64,000 bases of DNA, from assembly GCF_030814655.1 (NCBI RefSeq), contig NZ_JAUSVK010000001.1, forward strand, positions 4,347,001-4,411,000. The letters are read 5' to 3'. This document shows positions 3,732-56,250 of the stretch, one piece after another (the stretch's first letter is position 1; each line of letters opens with the position of its first letter). A program made the position numbers and the translations under genes. This stretch comes from Labrys monachus (lineage in GTDB: Bacteria > Pseudomonadota > Alphaproteobacteria > Rhizobiales > Labraceae). The notes beneath the pieces were generated by a model. The model made no database searches. It was not told where the DNA came from and saw only the letters and a program-made list of their open reading frames with translations.

Positions 3732-4241
3732 TCAGGCTGCGGCAAAGCCGCCATAGCCGCCCTGGGCGTAGACGAGCGGCCGGCCCGGGGTGACACGGAC
3801 GGCACGCACGGCGCCGACCACGATCGAATGGCTGTGGCGGTCGATGAATTCCTCGATCTCGCAGTCGATCGAGGCGAGAGCACCCTCCAGCGACAGCGCG
3901 CCAGTGGCGAGCGGCTGCCAGGCGGCATGCTCGTAGCGGGCCACGCCCTTGGCGCCGCCGCGCCCGGCAAAGCGGTCGGCAACGGCATGCTGGTGTTCGG
4001 CGAGCACGTTCACGCAGAAATGCCGGTACCGGCGCATCACCGGCCATGCCGACGCCTGCCGGTTGACGCAGATGATCATGGTGGGAGGCTCGACGGAGAG
4101 CGAGACGGCGGAGGTGGCCGTCAGTCCCGTCCTCTCCTCTCCGATGCCGGCGGTGATGACGCTCACACCGCCGGCGACCTGCCGCATGGCATCCTTGAGG
4201 GAAAACGAGGATACGGATGGCAGTTTCACGGCGACATTCAT
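3732..4241 (-). CDS. Flavin reductase family protein (FMN reductase partner)
   Basis: Using the ATG at 4239-4241 the protein is 169 residues, normal for the HpaC/SsuE-like flavin reductase (DIM6/NTAB) domain. Supporting segments are AMRQVAGGVSVITA near the N-terminus, TGLTATSAVSLSVEPPTMIICVN, and the F-C-V-N-V-L motif that follows. The frame is open further upstream, but that part lies in the AT-rich intergenic region and lacks family similarity. The protein probably reduces FMN with NAD(P)H for SsuD and the SfnB enzymes encoded directly downstream. It is the first gene of the leftward unit, and an AT-rich control-like element lies 106 bp upstream. Confidence 0.88.
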   Translation of the reverse strand: MNVAVKLPSVSSFSLKDAMRQVAGGVSVITAGIGEERTGLTATSAVSLSVEPPTMIICVNRQASAWPVMRRYRHFCVNVLAEHQHAVADRFAGRGGAKGVARYEHAAWQPLATGALSLEGALASIDCEIEEFIDRHSHSIVVGAVRAVRVTPGRPLVYAQGGYGGFAAA

Positions 4242-4346: not shown

Positions 4347-4366
4347 TTTAATGTCTATATATTTTG
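4347..4366 (-). promoter_or_regulatory. AT-rich shared element upstream of the flavin reductase unit
   Basis: Read on the minus strand this is CAAAATATATAGACATTAAA. It aligns without gaps to elements at 7573-7592 and 12225-12244, giving a consensus close to CAANATATATAGTCTAYAAA. In all three the element points towards a gene start 66-106 bp away. The surrounding DNA is GC-rich, so the match stands out. It may be a regulator-binding site or an extended promoter; which one cannot be decided here. Confidence 0.5.
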
Positions 4367-4446
4367 TATATTTATAGGACAGCGACCTGCCATCCCGACG
4401 AGCACCCGTGCCAACATGGGGCCTGGACGTCTTGTGCTCCGGGCAC

Positions 4447-5330: not shown

Positions 5331-5996
5331 TCAGTCGTGTCTGAGGCGTTTGTCGAACCTTCTTGCAATGCCGTCGCCCGCCGACTGCACCCCCTGGACG
5401 AGAAGAATGAGGATGACGACGACGACGGCCATCACCTCCGGCATGAAGCGCTGATAGCCGTAGCGCACCCCGACATCGCCGAGCCCGCCGCCACCGACCA
5501 CCCCGACCATGGCCGAGTAGCCGATGAGGCTGACGGTCGCGAGGGTGAGGCCGAGGACGATGCCCGACAGGGCTTCGGCGATCAGCACCTTGCGGATGAT
5601 CTGCAGCGGCGTCGCCCCGAAGGCCCTCGCCGCCTCGATGAGGCCGGGGTCCACGTCGCGGATGGCGCCCTCGACGATGCGCGCGATGAACGGCGCGGCG
5701 GCGAGCATCAGCGGCACGACGGCGGCGGCCGTGCCGATGGAGGTGCCGACCAGCAGCCGCGTCAGCGGGATGATGGCGACCACGAGGATGATGAAGGGCG
5801 TGGAGCGGGCGGCGTTGACGACCGCACCGAGCACGGCGTTGACGGCCGGCAGGGCGAGAAGCTCGCCGCGCCGGCTGGTGGCGAGGAAGACGCCGACGGG
5901 CAGGCCCAGCAAGGTGCCGAACAGCACCGACAGGGCCACCATCACGACGGTGTCGCGCGTTGCGACGAGGATGACCGCGAGAATGTCAGGCGACAT
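5331..5996 (-). CDS. metI: MetI-type methionine ABC transporter permease
   Basis: This is a 221-residue inner-membrane protein, the usual MetI length, with about five transmembrane helices. The cytoplasmic EAA loop is visible as EAARAFGATPLQIIRKVLIAEA, followed by GYSAMVGVVGGGGLGD, which is typical of MetI. The N-terminus MSPDILAVILVATRD leads straight into the first helix. Its start overlaps the end of metN by 11 bp, so translation is probably coupled. It forms the membrane channel for the MetN ATPase and the MetQ binding protein. Confidence 0.92.
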   Translation of the reverse strand: MSPDILAVILVATRDTVVMVALSVLFGTLLGLPVGVFLATSRRGELLALPAVNAVLGAVVNAARSTPFIILVVAIIPLTRLLVGTSIGTAAAVVPLMLAAAPFIARIVEGAIRDVDPGLIEAARAFGATPLQIIRKVLIAEALSGIVLGLTLATVSLIGYSAMVGVVGGGGLGDVGVRYGYQRFMPEVMAVVVVILILLVQGVQSAGDGIARRFDKRLRHD

Positions 5997-7083
5997 AGCC
6001 GACCACCTCCGCCTGGAGCTGCAGGGCCCTCAGCGCCGAGACGGCGGCCAGCCGGACGGCGGCCTCGCCCGGCATCGAGACCAGCAGCGCGCCGAATGGC
6101 TCGCCGGCGATCGAATCGATGCGGCCGGCCAGAATGTTGACGTCGATGCCGAGGACGGTGGTCAGCCGGCTGATCACCGGCGCCGTCGCGTGGGAGCCGC
6201 TGAAGGTGATGCGCAGCAGCGCCTGCCGGCCGGGACCGGGCTCGTGCGTCAGGCGCTGCGCGATGTCGGCCGGCAATTCGACGCCGGCGACGTTGCGCAC
6301 GAAACTGGCGGTGGTGGCATGATGCGGACGCGTGAGCACGTCGAAGGTGCGGCCGGTCTCGATCAGCCTGCCGGCTTCGAGCACGGCCACCCGGTGGCAG
6401 ATGTCCTTGACCACGGCAATCTCATGGGTGATCAGGACGATGGTGACGCCGAATGTGCGGTTGATGTCGGCGAGCAAGGCCAGGATCGAGGCCGTGGTTT
6501 CCGGATCGAGGGCCGAGGTCACCTCGTCGCCCAGCAGGATTTTCGGCCTGGTCGCCAGCGCCCGGGCAATGCCGACGCGCTGCTTCTGCCCGCCCGACAG
6601 CTCCGCCGGGTAGCGATTGCGCTTGTCGGCGAGGCCGACGAGGTCGAGCAACTCGCCGACGCTGCGCCGGATCTCCGCCTTTCCGGCGCCGGCGACCTCA
6701 AGGGGCAGCGCGACATTGTCGAACACGCTGCGCGAGGAAAGCAGGTTGAAATGCTGGAAGACCATGCCGATCGAACGGCGCAGCGGCCGCAGCGCCGCCT
6801 CCGCGAGCGGCCCGACATCGACGCCTTCGACCAGCACGCGCCCCGATGTCGGCCGCTCCAGCCCGTTGATCAGGCGTATCAGCGTCGATTTGCCCGCGCC
6901 GCTTCGCCCGATCACGCCGAAGATCTCGCCCGGCGCGACGTCGAGCGTGAGGTCGTCGATCGCGCGGACGGCGGGGCTGCCCCGGCGCGCCGCGAAGAGC
7001 CGGCAGACGCCGTCGAAACGCACGATCGGTTCGGCGGCGGGCAGCGGCAGCGACGCCGCCTCGAATCGCACCGGCGCGTTCAC
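5986..7083 (-). CDS. metN: MetN-type methionine ABC transporter ATP-binding protein
   Basis: The protein is 365 residues and begins at a GTG (7081-7083) that overlaps the preceding stop codon (GTGA). The Walker A motif GRSGAGKST is at about 59-67, the ABC signature [15 protein letters not shown] at about 163-177 and Walker B ILLGDEVTSALD just after. The C-terminal region (about 290-365) matches the NIL regulatory domain found in MetN, where methionine binding inhibits transport. The Walker B cysteine seen in many MetN proteins (LCDEATSALD) is glycine here. It energises MetI and MetQ. Confidence 0.93.
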   Translation of the reverse strand: MNAPVRFEAASLPLPAAEPIVRFDGVCRLFAARRGSPAVRAIDDLTLDVAPGEIFGVIGRSGAGKSTLIRLINGLERPTSGRVLVEGVDVGPLAEAALRPLRRSIGMVFQHFNLLSSRSVFDNVALPLEVAGAGKAEIRRSVGELLDLVGLADKRNRYPAELSGGQKQRVGIARALATRPKILLGDEVTSALDPETTASILALLADINRTFGVTIVLITHEIAVVKDICHRVAVLEAGRLIETGRTFDVLTRPHHATTASFVRNVAGVELPADIAQRLTHEPGPGRQALLRITFSGSHATAPVISRLTTVLGIDVNILAGRIDSIAGEPFGALLVSMPGEAAVRLAAVSALRALQLQAEVVGYVA

Positions 7084-7310
7084 GCCACCATCTCCTCGAG
7101 CAGCGAATGGAGACGCCGGGCAAGCTGGCCGGACAGGTAGCGCTCGGCATCGCGGGGTCCCGCGAAGGTCATGCCGTTGTAGCGCCCGAAGCGGCGGCTG
7201 GCGGCATGGAAGGCAAAGCGGCGGGCCTGGGCCTCGCGCACGACGATACCGACGGCCGAGCCGGCAATTTCGATGACATAGGATTCGGATGTGAGAGCGG
7301 ATTCGGACAT
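7080..7310 (-). CDS. Small unknown protein leading the metNIQ unit
   Basis: I do not recognise this 76-residue protein. It overlaps metN by four bases (GTGA), so it is very likely co-translated and real. It is soluble, with no signal peptide or membrane segment: the N-terminal half is predicted beta (SYVIEIAGSAVGIVVREAQA), followed by FAFHAASRRFGRYNGMTFAG and a basic helical tail. The central HAASRRFxxxNGxxF pattern resembles small conserved proteins found near sulfur and ABC-transport genes in rhizobia, but I cannot name a family. It might sense a ligand or modulate the transporter; this is inference from its position only. Confidence 0.7.
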   Translation of the reverse strand: MSESALTSESYVIEIAGSAVGIVVREAQARRFAFHAASRRFGRYNGMTFAGPRDAERYLSGQLARRLHSLLEEMVA

Positions 7311-7692
7311 GGGACCACCGCCACCGGAGTGGCGCTCCTCAAGGGAAAAGGGGAATGGGATCGGCTGCGCGCTTCAACAACAGCGCGCGCGACACCACAT
7401 TCCGCCGAAATCCCCGGTCATCCTGCCCTTCCTCGTCCAGCCGGCATTCGTCATGGCCACTTCCCTGTCAACGGAGCCCACGACGTCTGCCGTGGCGCTT
7501 TAGCGTTTGATGACGCGGCGCAAGCTGCTCGCTCAAATGCCCGCGATCGGTCCGATAACGAGCCGATGCCGACAACATATATAGTCTACAAATTTAGTCA
7601 ACTGTTGAATTGCGGCTCCCGCTTGTTTGTGCGCACCCGCATTGCGCGGCCCTGGCGGGAAGAGCATCGTTCGCCCGGAGAGGAGAACGCCC
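7311..7692. other. Divergent intergenic region, no gene seen
   Basis: This 382-bp stretch separates the leftward metNIQ unit from the rightward exported-protein pair. No convincing gene is present; the short frames that cross it lack a ribosome-binding site and sensible composition. The right third is AT-rich and holds the shared element at 7573-7595, followed by the small palindrome CAACTGTTG at 7599-7607. On the minus strand TTGACT (7598-7603 region) is followed 16 bp later by TATGTT, a possible promoter for the metN unit. Confidence 0.6.
7573..7595 (+). promoter_or_regulatory. AT-rich shared element upstream of the exported-protein pair
   Basis: The sequence starts CAACATATATAGTCTACAAA and continues TTT. 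It is the second copy of the element shared with 4347-4366 and 12223-12247. It lies about 100 bp upstream of the start at 7693 and points towards it. The core ATAGTCTAC is close to the near-palindrome ATAGTCTAT seen in the third copy. The role as operator or promoter is inferred. Confidence 0.5.
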
Positions 7693-8310
7693 ATGAAGAA
7701 CACCGCGCTCATCGTCGTGGCCGCCGGCTGCGCGATCGCCCACGCGCCCGTCGCGACGGCGGGCGTCGCGCCCGAGGACCAGGCCTTCCAGAAGCAGATC
7801 TTCGGCCATGTCCTGGGCGCGAAGCCCGCCCATGCCTGTTTCAAGCGTGTCTACGCCGCCGCCCATCTCGCCCGTCATCCGGAGCAGAATGTCAGGACCA
7901 TGACGCTGCTGGTCACCGGCAAGGTCGAGGATCCTGACCAGCCTTCCTATACGCTCGGCCTCGGCGTCACCTTCCGCAGGAGCGGCACCCATTTCGAGAC
8001 GGCGGGTGATTGCGGCACGATCCGCGATGCCGCGAGCCGTGGCGCCAAGGCCAATGCCGTCACTTGCGGCGTCGATTGCGACGGCGGCAGCATCGACGTG
8101 ACCCTGAAGGATGGCGCCACGGTGCTGGTCGCCATTCCCGACGGAGCCCGCATCTGGAAGGCCGGCAGCGACGACGACGAGACCGGCTCGGAACGCAAGC
8201 GCTTCGGCGCGGACGATCGGCTGTTCCGGCTCGATCGTGCCCCCCTCGGCGACTGCCTGCCGCTCGCGCCGGACGACGACCAGAAAGCCGCGATGGAGCG
8301 GGGGCAATGA
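7693..8310 (+). CDS. Exported protein of unknown function with several cysteines
   Basis: The start at 7693 follows an AGGAGA ribosome-binding site, giving 205 residues; the frame is open for 66 bp upstream but without a comparable site. A signal peptide is clear (MKNTALIVVAAGCAIAHA, cleavage near VATAG). The mature part has cysteines in the segments HACFKRVY, GDCGTI, TCGVDCDGG and GDCLPL, which could form disulfides in the periplasm. I do not recognise the family. It overlaps the next gene by four bases (ATGA), so the two exported proteins are probably made together. The unit is in the sulfur island and has the shared upstream element. Confidence 0.8.
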   Translation: MKNTALIVVAAGCAIAHAPVATAGVAPEDQAFQKQIFGHVLGAKPAHACFKRVYAAAHLARHPEQNVRTMTLLVTGKVEDPDQPSYTLGLGVTFRRSGTHFETAGDCGTIRDAASRGAKANAVTCGVDCDGGSIDVTLKDGATVLVAIPDGARIWKAGSDDDETGSERKRFGADDRLFRLDRAPLGDCLPLAPDDDQKAAMERGQ

Positions 8311-8744
8311 TGGACCGCCGCATCGCCGTCGGATCCGTCCTCGCCGCCGGCGCTGGCCTGCTCGCCACCGGCGCGCAGGCCAGCGCCGATGCCGTGCCAC
8401 GCGTCGCCTATCACCTTTCCGACCTCGACAAGGTGTCGTTCGTCCTCGGCAATCTGCGCAATCACGTCGACGGCATGGGCGGCCCCGCCGCCGTCGAGCT
8501 GGCGCTCGTGGTGCACGGGCCGCCTTTGCGCGCCTTTCGCGCCGATACCGGCAACGAGGCCGTGAAGCAGGCCGTCGCGCGGCTGGCAGCGGAGAACGTC
8601 AATTTCCTCGCCTGCATCCATACCATGGAGGGCATGAATCTCACCCTCCACGACCTCCTGCCGGGGTTCGCGGTGGCGGAAAAGGGCGGCGTGGTGAAGC
8701 TCGCGCAATTGCAGGCGCAGGGCTGGGCCTATCTCAGGCCGTGA
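8307..8744 (+). CDS. Exported DsrE-family protein
   Basis: The 145-residue protein starts with a signal peptide (MMDRRIAVGSVLAAGAGLLA, cleavage near AQASA-DA). The mature part fits the DsrE/DsrF-like fold: KVSFVLGNLRNHVDGMGG near the start, a central ELALVVHGPPLRAF strand-turn, the cysteine in NFLACIHTMEG, and the C-terminal VVKLAQLQAQGWAYLRP block typical of the family. Cytoplasmic DsrE proteins carry persulfide sulfur on such a cysteine. A periplasmic version could bind or relay sulfur outside the cytoplasm, but this is inference. The ATG overlaps the stop codon of the preceding gene. Confidence 0.82.
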   Translation: MMDRRIAVGSVLAAGAGLLATGAQASADAVPRVAYHLSDLDKVSFVLGNLRNHVDGMGGPAAVELALVVHGPPLRAFRADTGNEAVKQAVARLAAENVNFLACIHTMEGMNLTLHDLLPGFAVAEKGGVVKLAQLQAQGWAYLRP

Positions 8745-8757
8745 GGAACCGCCGAAA

Positions 8758-8780
8758 GAGAGCGCGCAGCGCCTGCTCTC
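8758..8780. terminator. Hairpin between convergent genes, possible terminator
   Basis: GAGAGC (8758-8763) and GCTCTC (8775-8780) can pair with an 11-base GC-rich loop, between the end of the DsrE-like gene and the end of the convergent DUF1877 gene. There is no T-run, so intrinsic termination is uncertain. Confidence 0.3.
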
Positions 8781-8790
8781 GCTCCGGCGC

Positions 8791-9315
8791 TCAGAGCGAC
8801 GACGAGGGCTCGATCCGGCCGTTCGCCGTGAACAGCACATAACGGCCTTCCTCCGCCGCCCGGAGCCAGAAGCTGCGCACCCCCTCGAACCTGCGCCAGG
8901 TCTCGTCGAATTCCTCGTTGTTCACGATGAAGGCGTGGTCCGTCGTCGGAATGGCCCGATACCGCCGATGGAATTCGCTGTGGGTCATGGCCGGAAGAAC
9001 CCGTGCCACGTCCTGGACCTGGTTGCGGGCCTTGAGGCGCATGACGAAGTCGTCGCCGGCATAGAGGCTGGTGCCGCCCAGCACGACGTGATTGAGCGGA
9101 TAGCGCCCTTCGCCCGACAGCGTCCCCTCCGCCAGGGCGCGGTGCATGGCATCCCAGGCCGTGCCGCTCTCGGCGATCCGCTCGGGGTGCTCGGCGACAT
9201 AGAGGGGCTCGATCGACTCGCGGAAATAATGAAGGCGCCTGCCGTCGTCGCCGATGCGGAGCAGGTGATCGACCTCTGAATCCGATAGGGAAAAATGGAT
9301 ACCGAGGCAGCTCAT
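8791..9315 (-). CDS. DUF1877 (YfbM-like) family protein
   Basis: The 174-residue protein begins MSCLGIHFSLSDSEVDHLL, and has the family features of DUF1877/YfbM: a W-D-A-M-H-R-A-L segment after an acidic linker, then YPLNHVVLGG and the C-terminal R-x-F-E-G-V-R-S-F-W-L-R-A. It has no signal peptide or membrane helix and is expected to be cytoplasmic. The function of the family is not established. It stands alone, convergent with the DsrE-like gene and 144 bp before the end of ssuB, so no role in sulfur use follows from its position. Confidence 0.75.
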   Translation of the reverse strand: MSCLGIHFSLSDSEVDHLLRIGDDGRRLHYFRESIEPLYVAEHPERIAESGTAWDAMHRALAEGTLSGEGRYPLNHVVLGGTSLYAGDDFVMRLKARNQVQDVARVLPAMTHSEFHRRYRAIPTTDHAFIVNNEEFDETWRRFEGVRSFWLRAAEEGRYVLFTANGRIEPSSSL

Positions 9316-9459
9316 GAGGCACTTCCCTTGACGACGATCCGGGAAGGCAATTGGCCATCAATCCAGCCGGAGGGCAAGCGGCCGGGCCTGCCGCGAGGGG
9401 GATCGGGCCGCCTTTCGGCGCCGGGGCGGCTTCCTGGTTACCGCCCGTCTTTGGCCGGC

Positions 9460-10266
9460 CTAGACATAAGCGAGGATGCGGGCCGCCAGCCTTGCCGCCG
9501 CCGGATCGTCCTTCTCGCGCGGCGGGCGCGGCAGGTCGACCGCGACGTCCAGCGCAACGGCGCCGTCGCGCAGGACGATGACGCGATCGGCGAGCGCCAC
9601 CGCCTCCGAGACATCGTGGGTGATCAGCATCGCCGTGAAGCCGTGCTCGCGCCAGATGCGGGCCAGAAGCTGGTGCATCTCCACACGCGTCATGGCGTCG
9701 AGGGCGCCGAAAGGCTCGTCGAGGAGGAGAATCTCCGGCCGGCTCACCAGGGCCCGGGCCAGCGCGACACGCTGTTTCTGCCCGCCGGAGAGCACGCTCG
9801 GCCATTCGCCGGCCCGATCGCCGAGGCCGACCTCGTCGAGCGTGGCCTGGGCAGCCTTCTTCCAGCCGGGGCCGCGCGCGATGCCGACATTGCCGATCAC
9901 CCTCTGCCACGGCAGGAGGCGCGCCTCCTGGAACATCAGCCTGGCGCCGCCCTGCGCCAGGGATGCCGCCTTTCCGCCGACGAGCACCTCGCCCCCGCTC
10001 GGCTTCTCCAGCCCGGCGACGAGACGCAGCAGGGTCGACTTGCCGCCGCCCGAACGGCCGACCACCGCGACGAACGCCCCCGCCGGGATGGCGATATCGA
10101 GGCGGTCCAGCACGACACGATGACCGAAGGCCTTCGAGACCGCCTTCAACTCGACCGACAGCCCGCCCGGCCCGGGGGCCTGCGAGGGAAGCGCCGCGCT
10201 GCCGGCGCTGCGCGCCAGTTCCGGCATGAAATAGCCATCCTCGACATAATGCACGGCATGGCTCAT
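9460..10266 (-). CDS. ssuB: SsuB-type aliphatic sulfonate ABC transporter ATP-binding protein
   Basis: I place the start at the ATG at 10264-10266 because it overlaps the ssuC stop (ATGA); this gives 268 residues. An N-terminal extension of about 35 residues ([18 protein letters not shown]) precedes the ATPase domain. Walker A is GRSGGGKST at 70-78, the signature is [15 protein letters not shown] and Walker B is [12 protein letters not shown], with the D-loop and H-loop ([10 protein letters not shown]) following. Proteins of the SsuB/TauB/NrtD group drive uptake of sulfonates, taurine, nitrate or pyrimidines; the sulfonate assignment rests on ssuD and the neighbours. Confidence 0.9.
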
Positions 10267-11081
10267 GCGAAGGCCTCCCGCCGCGGCCGCACATAGCTCG
10301 GATGCCATTGCAGCGCGGCCCGCTCGAAGAATTTCACGACGATGTCGGAAAGCTTGCCCAGCACTGCATAGAGGATGACGCCGAGCAGGATGACGTCGGT
10401 CTGCAGGAATTCACGGGCGTTCATCGTCATGTAGCCGATGCCGGAGGAGGCCGAGATGGTCTCCGCCACGATCAGGGTCAGCCACATGATGCCGAGCCCG
10501 TAGCGCAGGCCGACGAAGATCGAGGGAAGCGCTCCGGGCAGGATCACCCGCCAGAAGCGCTCGACCGGTCCCAGCCCGTAGACCCGCGCCATCTCGACCA
10601 GGGCCGGATCGACGGTCCTGATGCCGTGATAGGTGTTGATGTAGACGGGAAAGACGACGCCGATGGTCACCAGGAAGATCTTGGCGCCCTCGCCGATGCC
10701 GAACCACAGGATCACCAGGGGGATGATGGCCAGATGCGGCACGTTGCGCAGCATCTGCAGGGTCGAATCGAGCAGCAGGTCCGCCGGGCGCCACACGCCG
10801 TTGACGACGCCGAGCGCAAGGCCGATCAGGCCGCCGAGCACGAGGCCCTGCAACGCCCGCCCCGTGCTGACGGCGACGTTGTGGACGAGGGTGCCGTCAG
10901 CCAGGGTCTGCCAGAAGGCGACCGCCACCGCACTCGGGGCGGAGAGCACGCGCGCCTGGAGCCAGCCGGCGTCCGCGGCGATCTCCCACGACATCAGGAC
11001 GAGCGCCGGCAGGATCCAGGGAACGATGCCCTGGAGGCGACGGCTGGCGAGGAACCTGTCCATCATTGCGCTCCGGCTCAC
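10263..11081 (-). CDS. ssuC: SsuC-type aliphatic sulfonate ABC transporter permease
   Basis: The 272-residue membrane protein has about six transmembrane helices and the EAA-like loop [29 protein letters not shown], as in the SsuC/TauC/NrtB family. [27 protein letters not shown] near the C-terminal half is typical of this group. It overlaps ssuA by four bases (ATGA) upstream and ssuB by four bases downstream, so the three are translationally coupled. Confidence 0.92.
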
Positions 11082-12034
11082 AGGGCGACGCCGGGGCGCA
11101 GCGCGTCCGACACCTTGATGGCCTTGGGAATGAGGCCGAGCTGGTGGAAGGTGTCGGCGATCTTCTGCTGGTCCGCGATCGTCTCCGCCGTGATCGGCTG
11201 CACGTTCCAGGCCTGGCGCGCCAGGGCCTTGCCGAGGATGGGAGCGGGAATGCCGACGGCGGGCGCGAGTTCGGTCGCGGCCTGCTCGACATTGCCCTTC
11301 GCCCAGGCGTCGATCTCGCCGATGGAAGCGAGGACGGCGTCGATCACGGCGGGATTGGCCTGCGCGAAGCTCTTCTCACCCAGGTAGAATTGCCTGTTGG
11401 CGACGATGCCCTCGCCATTGGCGAGCTGGCGCGCCTCGATGGTGACTTCCGCGGCGGCCTGGAACGGATCCCAGATCACCCAGGCATCGATGTCGCCATG
11501 CTCGAAGGCGGCCCTGCCGTCGGAAGGCGTCAGGAACACCGGCTCGATATCGGCATAAGCGAGACCCGCCTTCTCCAGCGCCTTGACCAGGAGGTAGTGC
11601 ACGTTCGAGCCCTTGTTGAGGCCGACCTTCCTGCCCTTGAGCTCGCCGACCGCCTTGATCGGGCTGTCCTTCAGCACCAGGATCGCTTCGCCCCGCGGGG
11701 CCGCCGGTTCGTTGGCGATATAGACGAGGGGCGCACCGGCCGCCTGGGCGAAGATCGGCGGCGCCTCGCCGGTGATGCCGAAATCGAGCGCACCGACATT
11801 GAGCGCCTCCAGCAATTGCGGACCGCCGGGAAACTCCGTCCAGGTGACCCCGAACCCGAGCGGCTCGAGCTTCTTCTCGAGCAGCCCGCGCGCCTTGAGG
11901 ATCAGGAAAGTGCCGTATTTCTGATAGCCGATCCGCACAGTCCTGTCGGCCGCCCGGGCCGGCCCGAGCGCGACGGCGGCGAGCCCCATGGAACTGGCAG
12001 CAAGGACGGAACGCCGCGTCCATTTGAGGTCCAT
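11078..12034 (-). CDS. ssuA: SsuA-type aliphatic sulfonate-binding periplasmic protein
   Basis: The ATG at 12032-12034 is chosen since GAGGAG lies six bases before it; the protein is 318 residues. The signal sequence starts MDLKWTRRSVLAASSMGLAA, with a TRRSVL twin-arginine-like motif, and ends near ARA-AD. Mature segments RIGYQKYGTFLILKARG, FGVTWTEFPGGPQLLEAL, DFGITGEAPPIFAQAAG and GRKVGLNKGSNVHYLLVKAL define the SsuA family. It delivers sulfonates to SsuBC, and the SsuD monooxygenase then releases sulfite. It is the first gene of the ssuACB unit. Confidence 0.94.
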   Translation of the reverse strand: MDLKWTRRSVLAASSMGLAAVALGPARAADRTVRIGYQKYGTFLILKARGLLEKKLEPLGFGVTWTEFPGGPQLLEALNVGALDFGITGEAPPIFAQAAGAPLVYIANEPAAPRGEAILVLKDSPIKAVGELKGRKVGLNKGSNVHYLLVKALEKAGLAYADIEPVFLTPSDGRAAFEHGDIDAWVIWDPFQAAAEVTIEARQLANGEGIVANRQFYLGEKSFAQANPAVIDAVLASIGEIDAWAKGNVEQAATELAPAVGIPAPILGKALARQAWNVQPITAETIADQQKIADTFHQLGLIPKAIKVSDALRPGVAL

Positions 12035-12222: not shown

Positions 12223-12247
12223 CCAAATACATATAGTCTATAAATTC
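12223..12247 (+). promoter_or_regulatory. AT-rich shared element upstream of the oxygenase-metY unit
   Basis: This is the third copy of the element: AAATACATATAGTCTATAAA followed by TTC. The core ATAGTCTAT is a palindrome around one base. It sits 66 bp upstream of the oxygenase start and points to it. A TTGACT (12250-12255) and a TTGACA (12264-12269) follow directly and could be -35-like, but no good -10 partner is seen. Confidence 0.5.
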
Positions 12248-12310
12248 ACTTGACTTATAGAGTTTGACATGTTCGCTTTAGGGCCCAGTCGCCAAGAACG
12301 AACAAGATCC

Positions 12311-55987: not shown

Positions 55988-56079
55988 GGGCGTCCTCCAT
56001 TTCGAACGGGGGTCGAGACGGACGAAAACCACGCGAACGAGGCTGTCGAAGCCGAGGCCGAACGCTGTCGTTGCAAGGC

Positions 56080-56162
56080 TCATCCCTCCGCCGGCACGAC
56101 CCGGATCAGGTTCAACGGGTTGGCACGCCGCCTCTCAGCCCATTGGGCACCCCGTGAGACGT
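56080..56162 (-). promoter_or_regulatory. TPP (THI-element) riboswitch upstream of thiBPQ
   Basis: Read on the minus strand, the leader has the conserved TPP aptamer parts in order: ACGGGGTGC, GGGCTGAGAG, ACCCGTTGAACCTGATCCGG and GCCGGCGGAGGGATGA. It lies about 93 bp upstream of thiB and points to it. With thiamine pyrophosphate bound, expression of thiamine uptake genes is normally shut off. The switching mechanism (terminator or RBS masking) is not evident by eye. Confidence 0.96.
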
Positions 56163-56250
56163 TGTCGTGTTAGCCTGTTCACGCCCGGAGGAAAAGCGCG
56201 CTGTAACGAGCCCGTACGATTTTCAGGACGGGCCGGCCGGCATCCGCCCT

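Follow-up and report, generated by a model that had tools for sequence, protein, structure and literature searches.

The gene pair studied here lies on the plus strand of a 64,000-nucleotide stretch of DNA (the whole of which is called the window), contained in the 6.92 Mb single-contig genome of Labrys monachus. Gene 1 (P0001; 7693–8310, plus strand) encodes a 205-amino-acid protein of an unnamed family, in which five cysteines (C49, C107, C125, C129 and C188) follow a signal-like N-terminus, and gene 2 (P0002; 8307–8744, plus strand) encodes a DsrE-like protein of 145 amino acids. The ORF coordinates place an ATGA overlap between them at 8307–8310 (plus strand), as proposed in the initial annotation of this DNA. 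That annotation also assigned signal peptides to both products, and the N-termini have the corresponding features, namely a charged tip, a hydrophobic stretch and an AxA-type site, encoded at 7693–7761 in gene 1 (plus strand; cleavage near ATA/G, judged by eye) and at 8307–8381 in gene 2 (plus strand; read as DRRIAVGS..AQA, with an RR pair). Kyte-Doolittle means over 14 residues were 2.21 and 2.11 for the N-terminal stretches of gene 1 and gene 2, respectively, and both proteins are apparently exported, judging from these N-terminal sequences. Genes near the pair encode MetQ, an O-acetylhomoserine sulfhydrylase, an SsuA-type binding protein and two SfnB oxidoreductases, each of which scored above the cut-off of its model. 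A sulfonate-type ABC ATPase and a further SsuA-like protein are also encoded there, with scores below the cut-offs. Compared to the other contexts in which the pair occurs, this sulfur gene neighbourhood is peculiar to the L. monachus genome.

P0002 scored 22.2 bits against PF02635, for which the curated cut-off is 22.7, and phmmer related it to MTH1491 (PDB 1l1s) at E 1.9e-8. Moreover, 30 of 33 aligned relatives matched PF02635 at E 1e-3, and a profile built from the aligned relatives retrieved MTH1491 at E 7.3e-22. The family cysteine previously recognised in the motif NFLACIHTM (Cys103, codon at 8613–8615, plus strand) aligns with a cysteine of MTH1491 and is conserved among the homologues, being present in all 86 aligned sequences, 66/66 from loci paired with gene 1 and 20/20 from unpaired ones, the latter including an archaeal sequence without a signal-like N-terminus (L059) and a fused remnant (L126). 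Beyond its signal stretch P0002 contains no cysteine other than Cys103, and from the first strand onward the DsrE cysteine is the only one in 65 of the 66 paired and 17 of the 20 unpaired homologues. Two adjacent arginines were found inside the first 12 aligned residues in 64/66 paired and 13/20 unpaired homologues, and the signal-like N-terminus of gene 2 is possibly of the Tat type.

DsrE-type proteins are known chiefly as cytoplasmic sulfur carriers. The description of the family as normally cytoplasmic in the initial annotation has to be qualified, since signal-like N-termini are also present on DsrE proteins encoded in the soxB clusters of other genomes. P0002 has in common with MTH1491 and the PF02635 family its sequence relation and the conserved cysteine, whereas its signal-like N-terminus and its unrelated, barrel-like conserved neighbour set it apart. 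In the DsrEFH/TusBCD complex the partner proteins are of the DsrF and DsrH type; in contrast, the conserved neighbour of P0002 has no DsrE, DsrF or DsrH match, and the signal-like N-termini of the pair would point away from a cytoplasmic location. An unpaired DsrE with a signal-like N-terminus was also seen in genome G085 (locus L117, approximately 5583–11706), among genes that read as a SUF-type Fe-S cluster gene set.

The distribution of the two genes was followed in one set of 397 genomes from the order, of which 69 matched gene 1 (profile A1) and 104 gene 2. Counting gene 2 matches with E up to 1e-29 (39 places, the fused remnant of G194 being outside the count) and gene 1 matches with E 8.9e-8 or stronger (weaker ones were dropped), a gene 1 homologue was found at most 251 bp from gene 2 at 30 of the 39 places, upstream on the same strand in 22 cases and divergently oriented in 8. 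The same adjacency held for 42 of the 46 loci of a second collection, chiefly from Mesorhizobium, gene 1 being missing beside gene 2 in L004, L010, L011 and L012; a blastn search for gene 1 remnants beside the DsrE gene of the Bradyrhizobium locus L012 found none. The Mesorhizobium gene 1 is on the opposite strand and contains two domain copies. Within the genus Labrys, both genes are present in four of five genomes and both are missing in the fifth. When 105 neighbour genes from nine contexts were compared at E 1e-8, only the pair and ABC ATPases recurred, in a set where the gene 1 of L130 had been missed by gene calling and was recovered by tblastn, and where L020 was a short contig. The pairing of gene 1 with gene 2 is well supported. 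Neither outcome that the initial annotation named as refuting its proposal, a lack of co-occurrence elsewhere or a cysteine not conserved among homologues, was observed. The open-access literature searched contained no description of the gene pair, and the phrase "periplasmic DsrE" was in none of it.

The exceptions to this pairing are 9 of the 39 places with a lone DsrE gene, two of them in soxB clusters and the rest in mixed surroundings. Phylum-wide, the gene 2 subfamily was detected at E 1e-20 in 22 of 393 genomes, and the sole one outside the order (G545) had no gene 1 match. Such lone DsrE genes would suit a passive adjacency, in which two small exported genes are co-inherited without working together. 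We consider this highly improbable, as the pair is kept across nine contexts and two orientations, and a gene 1 domain with five cysteines but no nearby DsrE appeared in just 1 of the 47 complete unlinked cores described below. In G194, a 199-aa frame (L126, approximately 6741–7340) fuses the N-terminal two thirds of gene 1 in frame to the last 60 residues of DsrE, and retains both C129 and the DsrE cysteine. This fusion was set aside as a model for a natural complex: it is probably a deletion remnant or a decayed gene, and possibly a natural fusion.

The product of gene 1 had been described as a protein with several cysteines and no recognised domain, and this description holds: of its six cysteines one falls within the signal-like stretch and the other five follow, and it matches no Pfam or NCBIfam model, as was also the case for all 62 aligned members of its family (0/62 matched). 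Searching PDB sequences with the family profile gave no match at E 1. The structure model of gene 1 (mean pLDDT 86, pTM 0.82) consists mainly of strands. With this model no Foldseek match reached E 0.001, the best being at E 0.018, and in VIA-align comparisons the best Z was 8.0, to a designed barrel (rmsd 2.7, 99 aligned), followed by values of up to 7.0 for nitrophorins and of 5.9 for the Brucella PliC 4mir (rmsd 4.9, 84 aligned). No PliC or MliC sequence match to gene 1 was found in the Pfam scans or in the PDB profile search. Gene 1 is predicted to be a small barrel to which no clear relative can be assigned: calycin-type small barrels, such as nitrophorins and PliC, bear a weak structural resemblance to the predicted model, but the family profile has no PDB match, and the resemblance may reflect a common arrangement alone.

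Such a model raises the question of whether the barrel is a ligand carrier, whose calycin-like pocket would take up heme, a thiol or an organosulfur compound and offer this small molecule to DsrE. The barrel-like model and the presence of nitrophorins and other barrels among its weak matches would suit this role, as would two histidines, H58 and H62, found in 62/62 and 61/62 aligned family members, respectively. However, a common arrangement can yield Foldseek and Z scores of this size, and both histidines are also present in members that are not linked to DsrE, so that the link to DsrE would go unexplained; we regard a carrier role as unlikely. Phylum-wide, the gene 1 family was present in 29 of 393 genomes, 8 of them outside the order. 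Other Labrys genomes (L055–L057) also carry a second, solo family member with four cysteines, beside trpF and trpB and adjoining a D-alanyl-D-alanine dipeptidase-like gene (neighbours named by reading).

The cysteines of the gene 1 family were counted on distinct cores, from the first to the last cysteine, a core being taken as linked when a DsrE match lay within 1.2 kb; for most unlinked loci this status was judged on a flank of about 1 kb. All 67 distinct DsrE-linked first or single domains have exactly the five cysteines C49, C107, C125, C129 and C188. A further 41 linked cores are second domains of the Mesorhizobium type, with six cysteines each, and one shortened fused gene was listed separately; since these second domains have six, the whole Mesorhizobium-type proteins are odd too. 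Among the unlinked relatives (55 cores, of which 8 were cut off and excluded), 46 of the 47 complete cores have an even number of cysteines (29 have four, 16 six and 1 eight), and only one has five. C49, C107 and C188 are invariant across the 62 aligned family sequences. In 44 of the 47 complete unlinked cores C129 covaries with a sixth cysteine, both being present in 16 and both absent in 28, and the three exceptions (L163 and both L164 domains) all come from G237. Moreover, C107 and C125 are lost together in L236, and C129 and the sixth cysteine are lost together in L235, as read by eye from a shifted alignment for these two sequences and for L233 and L150.

This covariation points to disulfide bonds between C107 and C125 and between C129 and the sixth cysteine, with C49–C188 probably bonded by elimination. 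As C129 goes with the sixth cysteine in the unlinked relatives, and the latter is missing in the DsrE-linked proteins, C129 of the linked proteins would be left unpaired; in L. monachus it closes the C-G-V-D-C motif that starts at C125 (8065–8079, plus strand). C129 by itself is not exclusive to DsrE-linked proteins, an idea that was ruled out by unlinked members in which it occurs, then together with the sixth cysteine. It is the odd-cysteine signature that singles out C129 and distinguishes the DsrE-linked members from their relatives. In G237, a two-domain gene 1 relative (L164/L240) was observed with a five-cysteine first domain and an eight-cysteine second domain, and without a DsrE match within 13 kb; the gene 1 profile had several matches in this genome, and the gene 2 subfamily had none at E 1e-20.

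In the gene 1 tree, which included the cysteine columns and had few columns for its rows, the single-domain linked proteins formed one supported group (96/92), whose sole unlinked row was the fused, shortened gene of G194. The Mesorhizobium first domains lay apart on the tree, and a single clade was not rejected (p-AU 0.22), which argues that the odd-cysteine cases do not represent many independent events. The odd-cysteine state may go back to one old event and have been kept since.

Our best reading of these data, tentative and put somewhat below an even chance, is an extracytoplasmic relay of thiols or sulfane sulfur in which the two proteins work through Cys103 and Cys129. Gene 2 would provide an exported DsrE in which Cys103 is the sulfur-carrying residue of the family, and gene 1 a small barrel stabilised by disulfides, whose fifth cysteine, Cys129 of the CGVDC motif, would have lost its disulfide partner and been left as a thiol. 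The most plausible mechanism would be for Cys103 to accept a sulfane-sulfur or thiosulfonate group and, once the proteins were in contact, to exchange this group with Cys129, much as DsrE3A and TusA do, though in this case extracytoplasmically. Sulfur binding or relay in this compartment, as first proposed from the sequence, would fit both the organosulfur neighbourhood and the unpaired-cysteine pattern.

The DsrE3A–TusA system, which offers a precedent, is cytoplasmic. According to PMC4175335, DsrE3A of Metallosphaera cuprina carries thiosulfate on a cysteine and hands it to Cys18 of TusA, so that a DsrE-type protein exchanges a sulfur group with a small partner having one key cysteine. The pair appears to contain the same minimum, that is, one conserved DsrE cysteine and one apparently free partner cysteine; in contrast, DsrE3A has two conserved cysteines, and the Pfam scans gave no relation of TusA to gene 1. 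The same work also describes DsrE3A and TusA as not reacting with polysulfide or glutathione persulfide (PMC4175335), which by analogy would count against the relay. Also counted against it are the 9/39 places and 4/46 loci where DsrE lacks gene 1, the unlinked five-cysteine first domain of L164 in G237 together with the three G237 cores that break the covariation, the possibly single origin of the odd-cysteine state, the short flank on which most unlinked loci were judged, the second, six-cysteine domain of the Mesorhizobium partners, and the facts that the sulfur neighbourhood occurs only in this genome and that the upstream element described below was unseen before seven other pairs.

One conserved unpaired cysteine per protein would suit a mixed disulfide equally well, and the barrel could be a redox care-taker whose Cys129 reduces or protects the DsrE cysteine, or a client common to both, outside the cytoplasm, with no sulfur moving between the two proteins. 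There is a precedent in SoxS, described in PMC10451225 as a periplasmic thiol-disulfide oxidoreductase that resets SoxYZ, and thus as a helper of an extracytoplasmic sulfur-carrying cysteine. However, SoxS belongs to the Dsb family and gene 1 has no such domain; P0001 lacks a CxxC motif and gave no thioredoxin-type match in the Pfam and PDB searches, and a single free cysteine would require a further reductant. A care-taker role appears unlikely.

The pair could also be an accessory of thiosulfate oxidation, with DsrE taking sulfur from SoxYZ. On plasmid pOB3b1 of Methylosinus trichosporium, a DsrE with a signal-like N-terminus and 58% identity to P0002 over 113 residues is encoded two genes after soxB, and G252 and G351 each carry a second DsrE copy within a soxB cluster. 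However, these soxB-cluster copies have no adjoining gene 1, and the Methylosinus gene lies near soxB, a further DsrE gene and one for a DUF302 protein, whereas SoxB was not found in the pair-bearing Labrys genomes. At E 1e-50, SoxB was detected in 138 of the 397 genomes of the order. Of the 30 genomes in which the two genes are adjacent, 13 belong to this SoxB-positive set and 17, among them the four Labrys genomes with the pair, do not. The proposal of a Sox component was rejected on these grounds and, as an accessory role, is very improbable: the pair is related to Sox-linked DsrE proteins, and it is not a part of Sox. The Methylosinus locus itself (L058, 7303–10950) reads soxZ, soxB, then two DsrE genes and the DUF302 protein. 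No match to a gene 1 homologue was obtained in the plasmid records searched.

A sequence element upstream of the pair had been noted as shared, and this was borne out. The copy before the pair, ATATAGTCTACAAATT (7579–7594, plus strand), is perfect, and the second copy of ATATAGTCTAYAAATT (12231–12246, plus strand) is flanked on one side by the SsuA-type gene (minus strand) and on the other by the divergent genes for a 2OG-oxygenase-like protein and the O-acetylhomoserine sulfhydrylase. Perfect occurrences of ATATAGTCTAYAAATT are confined to these two places in the 6.92 Mb genome, both within the sulfur gene cluster of the pair, which shows that the element is shared within this cluster. With up to 3 mismatches, 0.03 occurrences would be expected in the window, a flattering figure since the pattern was derived from its own two sites, and the whole genome contains 20 such places versus 13 for the reversed pattern. 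The core GTCTAYAAAWW occurs at 7 genome places versus 5 for its reversed control. Apart from the two window sites, these are one within a coding frame, one in front of a gene without identification, one flanked by the genes for an NtaA/DmoA-type monooxygenase and an SfnB-like protein (under the cut-off of that model), and one each in front of the genes for an EhuB-type (ectoine) binding protein and for a peroxiredoxin whose C-terminal domain is of the 1-Cys type. LsfA, a 1-Cys peroxiredoxin of Pseudomonas, is described as induced under sulfur starvation (PMC12581299).

A palindrome, CTATA-N13-TATAG, overlaps the second copy of the element (12238–12260) and is one of its two perfect places in the genome. 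The other (4355–4377) is situated between metQ and a flavin-reductase-like gene (3735–4241, minus strand; named by reading), upstream of the latter and downstream of metQ. Allowing up to one mismatch, the palindrome was found 22 times versus 70 for a control whose perfect places were left uncounted, and it is absent from the promoter of the pair. Visual inspection of seven regions upstream of other pairs revealed no element like that before the L. monachus pair. The looser patterns were judged to be no commoner than their controls. The motif controls speak against a large regulon and, together with the true place of the palindrome at 4355, they weaken the regulatory part of our reading. In L. 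monachus the pair may be induced along with organosulfur scavenging, and a broader control by sulfur starvation is no more than a suggestion.

The pair is real and conserved, and the family of its partner has no Pfam or NCBIfam name; the chemistry put forward for it is inferred. Taken as a whole, the proposal that a barrel family lost half a disulfide in one or two branches, that the resulting reactive C129 serves an exported DsrE, and that the two form a Sox-independent extracytoplasmic relay tied to sulfur starvation in L. monachus is possible but doubtful. If true, a conserved exported DsrE with a partner of its own would represent an extracytoplasmic sulfur-handling step absent from pathway maps. 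The hosts of the pair are soil and root-nodule bacteria, many of them without SoxB. Finally, an Rfam scan of the window for known RNAs upstream of the pair gave as its sole match a TPP riboswitch (72.6 bits; 56066–56164, minus strand), which heads a minus-strand gene for a binding protein; a gene for an ABC permease comes next, and both, as read from their translations, presumably serve thiamine uptake.
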